A stretch of 64,000 nt of DNA from Polynucleobacter sp. VK25 (GTDB taxonomy: Bacteria > Pseudomonadota > Gammaproteobacteria > Burkholderiales > Burkholderiaceae): assembly GCF_018687355.1 (NCBI RefSeq), contig NZ_CP061288.1, forward strand, positions 1,746,144 to 1,810,143, written 5' to 3'. Shown here one piece after another: positions 10,759 through 56,457 of the stretch (position 1 is the first letter of the stretch; each line of letters starts with the position of its first letter). The position numbers and the translations under genes are program-made. The notes below the pieces were generated by a model that was not told the origin of the DNA, did not search any database, and was given only the letters and a program-made list of their open reading frames with translations.

Positions 10759-10835
10759 TGGTGGCGAATCAGGGATTTGAACCCCGGACCTGCGGATTAT
10801 GATTCCGTCGCTCTAACCAGCTGAGCTAATTCGCC
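10759..10835 (-). tRNA. tRNA-Met (anticodon CAT), probably elongator
   Basis: A 77-nt tRNA with the CCA end encoded. The acceptor stem GGCGAAT pairs perfectly with ATTCGCC. A D-arm with AGCTCAGCTGGTTAGAGC, an anticodon arm with CAT and a T-arm GGTTCAAATCC are all present. It has a base-paired acceptor end, unlike initiator tRNA, and resembles elongator tRNA-Met. A tRNA-Ile with a lysidine-modified CAU anticodon cannot be fully excluded by eye. Confidence 0.95.
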
Positions 10836-54885: not shown

Positions 54886-55314
54886 TTAAATCTCTAACGC
54901 TTTTGGCTGTTGAGCCGCATGCGGATGATTGGCGTCGCCGTAGACTTTTAATTTCTTAATCATGGCATAGCCTAGTGGGCCTTTTGGCAACATACCCTTC
55001 ACAGCCTTCTCCAAAGCGCGACCTGGGAAACGGTCTTGCATCTTGTCGAAGTTAGTCGAGCTAATACCACCTGGGTATCCGCTGTGACGGTAATAAATTT
55101 TGTTCAAGCCTTTTGTGCCTGTGACACGGAGCTTAGAAGAATTGATAACGACAATAAAGTCGCCAGTATCAACGTGTGGGGTGTATTCAGGCTTGTGCTT
55201 GCCGCGTAGACGGAGTGCCACTTCACTGGCGACACGACCGAGGACTTTGTCCGTAGCGTCAATCACGAACCATTCATGCACTACCTCATGGGATTTTGCA
55301 GAAAAAGTTTTCAT
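54886..55314 (-). CDS. rplM: 50S ribosomal protein L13
   Basis: RplM (142 residues) has [38 protein letters not shown] and [22 protein letters not shown]. It is the first gene of rplM-rpsI; the 411-bp region upstream holds its promoter and a candidate small RNA. Confidence 0.98.
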
Positions 55315-55473
55315 GATTTCTCAAATTGTTATGGTCAAAAAAAATTACTCCAACCAAACTACGTCCACCTTGGCCCTGCTTATGTTTGCAAGCTCGCAGA
55401 TTCTGCAATTTAACTGGTACAACAAATTACCGCTGACCGGCTCGGTAATTCAGTAAAGCCTTGAATTGTAACC

Positions 55474-55576
55474 TAAAAAAAACCCAGGAACGAGTCCTGG
55501 GTTGGAATCCACCTATGTTTGGGTGGAGGAGACACTGGGAGGTAAGTCGCAGTCTTATACAAGACTGACTACCAAT
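55474..55576 (-). ncRNA. Candidate small regulatory RNA with CCUCC motifs
   Basis: A predicted transcript of about 103 nt with its own promoter and terminator. From the 5' end: a hairpin (55572-55542, inner perfect 7-bp stem CAGTCTT with AAGACTG and outer GTAGTC with GACTTAC), a CU-rich stretch with two CCUCC motifs, a second hairpin (55526-55509, CCACC with GGTGG) and a terminator hairpin with U-tract. CCUCC is complementary to Shine-Dalgarno sites, so it may bind mRNA ribosome sites. The alternative is an attenuated leader of rplM. I do not recognise a named family. Confidence 0.6.
55475..55502 (-). terminator. Intrinsic terminator of the candidate small RNA
   Basis: ACCCAGGA (55482-55489) pairs with TCCTGGGT (55495-55502) around a 5-nt loop; on the minus strand a run of seven to eight U follows. 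No protein gene on the minus strand lies directly upstream. Confidence 0.9.
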
Positions 55577-55582
55577 ATGGTT

Positions 55583-55612
55583 ATTCTACACAAGGAGCAT
55601 GGTGCAACGCAA
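55583..55612 (-). promoter_or_regulatory. Promoter of the candidate small RNA
   Basis: On the minus strand TTGCGT (55612-55607) and TAGAAT (55588-55583) are separated by 18 bases, a good sigma-70 match. The start would be near 55576. Confidence 0.6.
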
Positions 55613-55617
55613 GAATA

Positions 55618-55631
55618 TTGACCAAAATCAA
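55618..55631. promoter_or_regulatory. FNR-like dyad
   Basis: TTGAC-N4-ATCAA differs by one base from the FNR/Anr consensus TTGAT-N4-ATCAA and sits inside a larger AATATTG-N8-CAATATT dyad (55614-55635). It is centred about 48 bases upstream of the predicted small-RNA start. A second dyad (GTTGCTG-TG-CAGCAAC, 55641-55656) lies 10 bases further away. Confidence 0.4.
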
Positions 55632-55725
55632 TATTTTTATGTTGCTGTGCAGCAACTTAGTTTCCCTTAAAATAGGTAAACTATTGATAATATTGATTAA
55701 TTTAGTAAGTTAGGGGTCACTAATA

Positions 55726-56148
55726 ATGGAATGTCGAGTAAGTTGGTTGGGTAATGGCGGGATGGCTTTTTCTGCAGAAACTGGCAGTGGCCACCTTGTA
55801 AACATGGATGGCGCCCCTGAAGCAGGTGGCAGAAACCTGGCTCCAAGGCCAATGGAACTGCTATTAGCGGGCGCGGGCGGTTGCTCAGCCTTTGATGTAG
55901 TTTTAATCCTACAGAGGGCCCGTCAGGCTATTAGCGGCTGTGAAGTGGCTCTCCAAGCGGAAAGGGCCGCAGAAGACCCCAAAGTCTTCACTAAGATCAA
56001 TTTGCACTTCATCGTTAAGGGCAAAGATCTGGATCAGGCAAAGGTAGATCGCGCCGTTAAGCTGTCTCATGAAAAGTATTGCTCAGCCACAACCATGTTG
56101 GCCAAAACTGCAGAACTGACTTACAGCGTCGAAATCATTTCAGAATAA
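55726..56148 (+). CDS. OsmC-family protein (YhfA-like)
   Basis: A 140-residue OsmC-fold protein. Cys53 (GAGGCSAFDVVLILQRARQ) and Cys119 (HEKYCSATTMLAKTAELTY) occupy the thiol positions, and the PRPMELLLAGAGGC pattern is that of the YhfA group, whose substrates are not known. It is convergent with rnpB; the mature rnpB end lies only 2 bases after this stop. Confidence 0.9.
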   Translation: MECRVSWLGNGGMAFSAETGSGHLVNMDGAPEAGGRNLAPRPMELLLAGAGGCSAFDVVLILQRARQAISGCEVALQAERAAEDPKVFTKINLHFIVKGKDLDQAKVDRAVKLSHEKYCSATTMLAKTAELTYSVEIISE

Positions 56149-56150
56149 GT

Positions 56151-56457
56151 GCAGAGTCAATCGATAAGCCGGATTCTGTCGCCTAGATTTGCATCTAGGG
56201 GCAATCATTCCTCTAGGCCGGCAGTTACCTGACGGCTCAAGCTCCCTACCCGCAGACTCAGCGGGACGCCTCATCGCCTGCTTACTTGGGATTGCTCCAG
56301 GTGGAGGTTACCGCGTTTCACCGTAACTAAATACGCTCGTCTCTGTGGCCCTATTCCTCACGTCGCCGTGGATGGCCGTTAGCCATCACCCTTCCCTATG
56401 GAGTCCGGACTTTCCTCCCCCTCAATAAAGAGGCGGCGATTGCCCAATTGACTCTGC
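56151..56457 (-). ncRNA. rnpB: RNase P RNA (M1 RNA), bacterial class A
   Basis: The catalytic RNA of RNase P that matures tRNA 5' ends. On the minus strand the conserved core is visible: GAGGAAAGTCCGGACTCC, AGGGTGATGGCTAACGGCC and the 3' ACAGAATCCGGCTTAT. The ends pair as helix P1 (56457-56447 with 56161-56151, 11 bp). Length is about 307 nt. No U-tract terminator follows the 3' end inside the OsmC-like gene, so the 3' end may be made by processing. Confidence 0.95.

Follow-up and report, generated by a model that had tools for sequence, protein, structure and literature searches.

A Polynucleobacter copy of the RF02278 small RNA family between osmC and rplM, a probable base-pairing repressor of nutrient uptake

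The closest described counterpart of the small RNA (sRNA) considered here is ncS27 of Burkholderia cenocepacia J2315, a 92-nt RNA that has a processing site and whose 3' end was confirmed by RACE, labelled RF02278 and placed on the minus strand between BCAL3348a and BCAL3349 (PMC5688073, PMC4603805). In planktonic culture its overexpression is reported to attenuate growth and its silencing to raise growth, with no significant effect in biofilms (PMC5688073), and a review describes effects on genes of phenylalanine and tyrosine catabolism and of carbohydrate transport (PMC10987360). A relative from Bordetella pertussis, S17, is reportedly trimmed by RNase E from a 190-nt form to 67 nt and is present at a lower level without Hfq; its pairing at the BP2158 5' UTR was proven by compensatory changes, its candidate targets include 32 transporter-related genes or operons, and two tested candidates showed no effect (PMC11722255). 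The same preprint gives positions 2-28, including a pairing site in the hairpin loop, as 100% conserved throughout Betaproteobacteria (PMC11722255). The NmsRA/NmsRB pair of Neisseria meningitidis, described as repressing metabolic genes, has three stem-loops, the first and second of which are separated by a UC-rich anti-Shine-Dalgarno stretch (PMC5362039), an anatomy like that of the RNA described below. Searches of one open-licence library, covering for one query the first 10 of 9,358 papers, listed no paper on this RNA in Polynucleobacter, and the main text of two papers on Polynucleobacter RNAs makes no mention of rplM (PMC8632094, PMC2864571).

We analysed a 64,000-nt stretch of the Polynucleobacter sp. 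VK25 chromosome (the window, to which coordinates refer). Here rplM (54886-55314, minus strand, start at 55314) and a divergent OsmC-like gene (55726-56148, plus strand, start at 55726; Pfam OsmC, 5.2e-20) flank an interval, 55457-55725, that holds no ORF of at least 70 aa on either strand, in keeping with an initial annotation of the sequence which had seen no protein gene there. That annotation had read from the minus strand a TTGCGT-N18-TAGAAT promoter, a 5' hairpin, a CU-rich stretch, a second hairpin and a terminator, and had proposed a stand-alone RNA of about 103 nt; all of these elements are present, and we predict an RNA of 102 nt (55475-55576, minus strand), closing with the final T of the terminator T-run and with its start placed by analogy at a probable ATTGG (55576). 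The putative promoter (55583-55612, minus strand) consists of TTGCGT (55612-55607), an 18-nt spacer and TAGAAT (55588-55583). A strict consensus promoter scan gave 0 sites (2.0 expected by chance), and the call therefore rests on conservation of similar hexamers in the genus: TTGNNN-N16-19-T(A/G)NNNT lies shortly upstream of an ATTGG-like start in 68 of 98 genus copies, all matches having a spacer of 17 or 18 nt. We judge that the stretch very probably holds a genuine sRNA gene of a known family. On its other side the OsmC-like gene adjoins a class A RNase P RNA (56149-56455, minus strand) in an Rfam scan of the window, which also returned a sole tRNA gene (10762-10835, minus strand).

The predicted RNA folds into three hairpins (106 nt, -35.3 kcal/mol, z -4.24, 0 of 200 shuffles equally stable; the 3' 64 nt alone gave z -3.74, with 1 of 200 shuffles as good), and all features lie on the minus strand. 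A 5' hairpin (55539-55571) is followed by an upstream, lineage-specific CCUCC (55538-55542), letters 1-2 of which are paired in that hairpin, and then by the unpaired stretch UCCCAGUGUCUCC, which separates it from a downstream CCUCC (55525-55529). The latter belongs to Site 1, GUCUCCUCC (55525-55533), a near-invariant predicted pairing seed, and contributes its last three letters to hairpin 1 (55507-55527; stem UCCACC/GGUGGA), the loop of which, CAAACAUA, contains no CCUCC. An intrinsic terminator (55475-55503) closes the RNA, with a hairpin at 55503-55481 and a T-run whose last T is 55475. Both CCUCC motifs had been assigned to a single-stranded stretch; the two motifs are there, each of them partly paired in the predicted fold rather than fully single-stranded.

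The 3' part of the RNA matches Rfam family RF02278, "Betaproteobacteria toxic small RNA", over the complete model (window 55474-55534, model 1-64; 52.8 bits against a gathering score of 50, E 9.4e-8), and shows the family architecture of two hairpins behind UGUCUCCUCC, the second being a terminator. The sRNA is thus not new in kind: it is the Polynucleobacter copy of the known RF02278 family, a membership that the free-standing description in the initial annotation had missed. Two other families that combine a CU-rich stretch with a terminator stayed below their gathering scores, anti-hemB (RF02837, 33.8 against 49.5 bits, aligning to part of the same stretch) and ar14 (RF02344, 17.7 against 58.8 bits). 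The 2.0-Mb host genome holds this single RF02278 match above the cut-off, the runner-up scoring 18.4 bits. Within the genus, 103 of 121 genomes carry a match, wherever located, with E no higher than 0.01, and 75 of the 121 have one above the cut-off; covariance-model searches across the Burkholderiaceae found matches in 187 of 200 genomes, spread over 20 of 25 genera, many family genomes holding several copies; and at the level of the order 99 of 150 genomes have a match at E 0.001, 59 of them above the cut-off. None of the 14 control genomes in the host, genus, family and order searches gave a match above the cut-off.

Gene order is shared too. We sampled 60 family genomes, 59 of them with rplM, and sought the motif TGTCTCCTCCA up to 1,200 nt upstream of that gene: it is present in 42 of the 59, from 18 of 25 genera, at 213-985 nt from the rplM start, and a divergent osmC relative lies beyond it in 41 of the 42 loci (a 43rd exact match, L111, lacks the hairpin and was excluded from this count). 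Among the genera with no motif in the slot, the genomes of three (g4, g6 and g14) are tiny, at 0.2-0.5 Mb, those of g18 carry RF02278 matches at other places, g19 has one RF02278 match, and the sampled genomes of g9 and g23 have no such match; in g8, g11, g13 and g15 the motif occurs in only part of the sampled genomes. Within Polynucleobacter, the distance from Site 1 to the downstream rplM is 202-235 nt in 97 of 98 copies, the remaining copy standing at a contig end. These counts point to the osmC-rplM slot as a long-standing location of RF02278-type sRNAs. B. cenocepacia NCTC13227 (L182) likewise has a copy between osmC and rplM, 91 nt from ATTGG to the last T, which by its length, family and slot is almost certainly the published, 92-nt ncS27; this near-identity of length also favours the stand-alone RNA that the initial annotation had proposed. 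BCAL3348 we take to be rplM of strain J2315.

Set beside ncS27, the Polynucleobacter sRNA belongs to the same Rfam family, has its 5' hairpin, Site 1, hairpin 1 and terminator arranged in the same succession, and lies, like the B. cenocepacia copy, between osmC and rplM; it differs in a longer 5' hairpin, in a hairpin 1 loop without CCUCC and in copy number, its host having one copy above the cut-off and B. cenocepacia four paralogues according to the published accounts. With S17 it has the Site 1 seed and the terminator in common, whereas S17 is reported to lie between BP3151 and coq7 and to have the 190-nt long form, and the second, loop-borne pairing site of S17 is absent in Polynucleobacter. 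The second CU-rich anti-Shine-Dalgarno site that the double-hairpin RNAs ncS27 and S17 carry in the loop of hairpin 1 is accordingly not found here. The likeness to NmsRA/NmsRB is one of anatomy; those RNAs are described as tandem siblings with a second UC-rich site in a loop and with TCA-cycle targets (PMC5362039).

Of the 98 genus copies, 97 carry Site 1 unchanged as GTCTCCTCC, a figure that in part reflects choice, since a pattern much like Site 1 was used to select the copies. A further CCTCC is less constant: it stands in the linker in 55 of the 98 copies, in the loop in 4 and in neither place in 39. On these counts we rejected the twin CCUCC as a functional unit, to which the initial annotation had given too much weight, and likewise a scheme in which the number of anti-Shine-Dalgarno motifs is fixed at two and only the position swaps between linker and loop. 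Outside the genus the loop CCTCC is present in 30 of 38 rplM-adjacent family copies and, beyond that scripted count, in L074. With loop CCTCC in 4 of 98 copies, Polynucleobacter departs from the 100% conservation given in the S17 preprint, and a second pairing site called fully conserved for S17 relatives can apparently be lost. The parts retained are Site 1, hairpin 1, the terminator and often the 5' hairpin that Rfam omits. Should the RNA be trimmed in the way described for ncS27 and S17, the linker CCUCC would be lost too, and Site 1 alone would be left.

Covariation in related genomes, which the initial annotation had named as one test, was found in both alignments that we built. The genus alignment comprised 52 rows, that is 49 of 84 distinct genus sequences and three named copies; the 35 distinct sequences omitted have differing 5' parts, and among them some (L012, L013, L015) still fold a 5' hairpin of unlike sequence and some (L014, L024-L026) show no clear hairpin. 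Over all three helices 26 cells change on both sides, against 7.1 in shuffles (0 of 500 reaching 26) and 2 to 9 in slid structures, and within the 5' hairpin 6 of 13 pairs show such two-sided changes. In an alignment of 41 Burkholderia-type rows, 3 of 9 pairs of the 5' hairpin change on both sides, with 11 two-sided cells over all helices against 3.3 in shuffles (0 of 500); further pair types in these rows did not exceed shuffles (15 against 15.1). No single register for the inner stem of the 5' hairpin was upheld: there are two slipped registers, each suiting different copies. The 45-nt stretch that precedes Site 1 also folds more stably than an upstream control stretch, with z below -1.5 in 57 of 84 genus sequences against 15, in 18 of 38 family copies against 6, and in 28 of 31 named copies against 3 (31 of 33 distinct named copies had enough flank). 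This covarying 5' hairpin, which lies outside the Rfam model, adds to the known description of the family.

We searched for candidate targets in the host genome by the seed complement before ATG, which gave 9 sites for GGAGGAGA and 14 for AGGAGACA, or 19 different sites; frames shorter than 60 aa were dropped (7 of these 19 sites, and 8 of 21 control sites). Twelve candidate target genes with a frame of at least 60 aa remained, and seven of them encode solute-binding proteins by Pfam (four TctC, two Peripla_BP_6 and one NMT1_3), the other five being a FAD-binding subunit, a molybdopterin oxidoreductase, an amidohydrolase, a DUF2147 protein and a TerC protein. The control pattern, AGGAGA(A/T)A before ATG, gave 21 sites and 13 genes with one solute-binding protein, so that the excess is 7 of 12 against 1 of 13 (Fisher p 0.01, one-sided, in a small sample). 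The five genes retrieved with GGAGGAGA all have TGGAGGAGAC, which extends the search pattern by two letters. Paired with a 19-nt segment of the sRNA, these five genes give predicted duplexes of -20.7 to -29.1 kcal/mol, the other seven -12.8 to -17.3 and rplM -3.9, energies that constitute no test, the targets having been selected by complementarity. An hfq gene is present in the host genome. Chance-level RF02278 matches (12.4 and 13 bits) lie opposite two predicted target sites, at G000:C1:555201-555250 (+) and 1227787-1227816 (+); such weak matches would be expected if the targets mirror the seed.

The extended box TGGAGGAGACA before ATG occurs 121 times in the 101 genus genomes searched, in 66 of them (35 have no site), against 30 occurrences for four pooled control tails with the same TGGAGGA start, or about 7.5 each, and 5 for the reversed pattern. 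These sites are not independent events, because one of them, TGGAGGAGACAACCATG, recurs as 35 rows in 34 genomes; many of the 121 are the same gene across species, and 6 are the opposite strand of the sRNA itself. Thirty of the loci were fetched, 26 of which have long frames, and 19 of these read as solute-binding proteins: three by Pfam (L321, L324, L328), one (L344) as the own-genome gene tested as L277, and the remainder by likeness.

We consider it probable that this locus encodes a stand-alone, trans-acting RF02278 sRNA, an orthologue of ncS27 and a base-pairing repressor of nutrient uptake. In Polynucleobacter, we infer, the sRNA would be transcribed from its own promoter and end at its own terminator, and the 5' hairpin part would probably be removed by trimming, as published accounts describe for ncS27 and S17. 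The exposed GUCUCCUCC would then pair, probably with Hfq, with GGAGGAGAC at the ribosome-binding sites of target mRNAs and so block ribosome entry; with periplasmic solute-binding proteins (TctC, Peripla_BP_6, NMT1_3) as the best candidate targets, it would act as a brake on the uptake of organic acids, amino acids and similar nutrients. That the sRNA probably damps nutrient uptake is read from a pairing stretch that fits the ribosome-binding sites of nutrient-uptake genes, and the results for S17 and ncS27 may not transfer in full because the hairpin-loop pairing site is missing in Polynucleobacter.

The position of the sRNA beside rplM on the same strand, at the genus-wide distance given above, would also suit a cis-acting attenuator or leader of a long rplM transcript started at the TTGCGT/TAGAAT promoter. 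We regard this as very unlikely, because a promoter-like -10 element of rplM, TACAAT (55464-55469, minus strand), directly follows the terminator and survives loss of the sRNA. Just behind the terminator, 80 of 98 genus copies have TACAAT (69) or TATAAT (11) followed by AGGC, near variants stand in all 8 inspected of the other 18, and the element before rplM is retained both in G032, from which the sRNA is lost, and in G089, where it has decayed. The distance to rplM moreover varies widely in the family, several RF02278 copies occur in many family genomes, and ncS27 is reported as an independent transcript; with a separate promoter-like element for rplM and a variable distance, we agree with the initial annotation in ranking an attenuator below a stand-alone RNA.

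Two further readings concern the mode of action. CCUCC is complementary to the Shine-Dalgarno core, and a CU-rich seed that mimics the 16S rRNA 3' end might compete for many Shine-Dalgarno sequences and damp translation in general, in line with reports that overproduced family members slow growth in E. coli or B. cenocepacia; we think this unlikely, given that TGGAGGAGACA is enriched over control tails with the same TGGAGGA start and that the extended complement falls on one gene class more than the control does. A toxin RNA of the toxin-antitoxin kind, as the Rfam name suggests and as the toxicity that PMC4603805 recounts for family members cloned in E. coli might indicate, is scarcely credible for an RNA with a fixed chromosomal slot in 18 of 25 genera; the reported toxicity is in a foreign host, and it was not seen for S17 in exponential growth (PMC11722255). 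For an antisense antitoxin the analysis covered the Rfam scan of the window.

Returning to the stand-alone, trans-acting repressor, a more specific version can be put forward tentatively, at somewhat less than even chances: the RNA may have been pared to the one seed GUCUCCUCC, with a regulon of solute-binding-protein genes sharing the TGGAGGAGACA box that serves as an uptake brake in freshwater plankton, and the 5' hairpin may be a module that controls trimming and hence activation. As a free-living bacterium whose small genome holds a single copy above the cut-off, the host offers a simpler setting for testing the predicted regulon than Burkholderia with its several paralogues; covariation of the 5' hairpin and the predicted uptake regulon are what the present analysis adds.

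Several genus members depart from the common pattern. The copies upstream of rplM that are decayed (L270, in G089) or lost (L271, in G032) belong to genomes that are both small and nearly complete, and G102 (L262) has an altered Site 1, GTCTCTTCC. Two sRNA-like elements occur elsewhere in other Polynucleobacter, not beside rplM. The first, divergent, reads TTGTCTCCTCGGTACCCAG...AAGTACC...CCCCCGC...GCGGGGGTTTTTTT (L258-L261 and L263-L265, at about 401-475 or 801-876), is also carried by G032, has the first 8 seed letters in common with the sRNA and scores 28-30 bits against RF02278, with no Rfam match at gathering score in L259, L261 and L264. The second, GTCTCCTCCATA...TATGGTT...CCCGC...GGCGGGTATTTTTT (L257, L266, L267, L268), gave no Rfam match at gathering score in L266 and L268 and scores 31-37.5 bits against RF02278.
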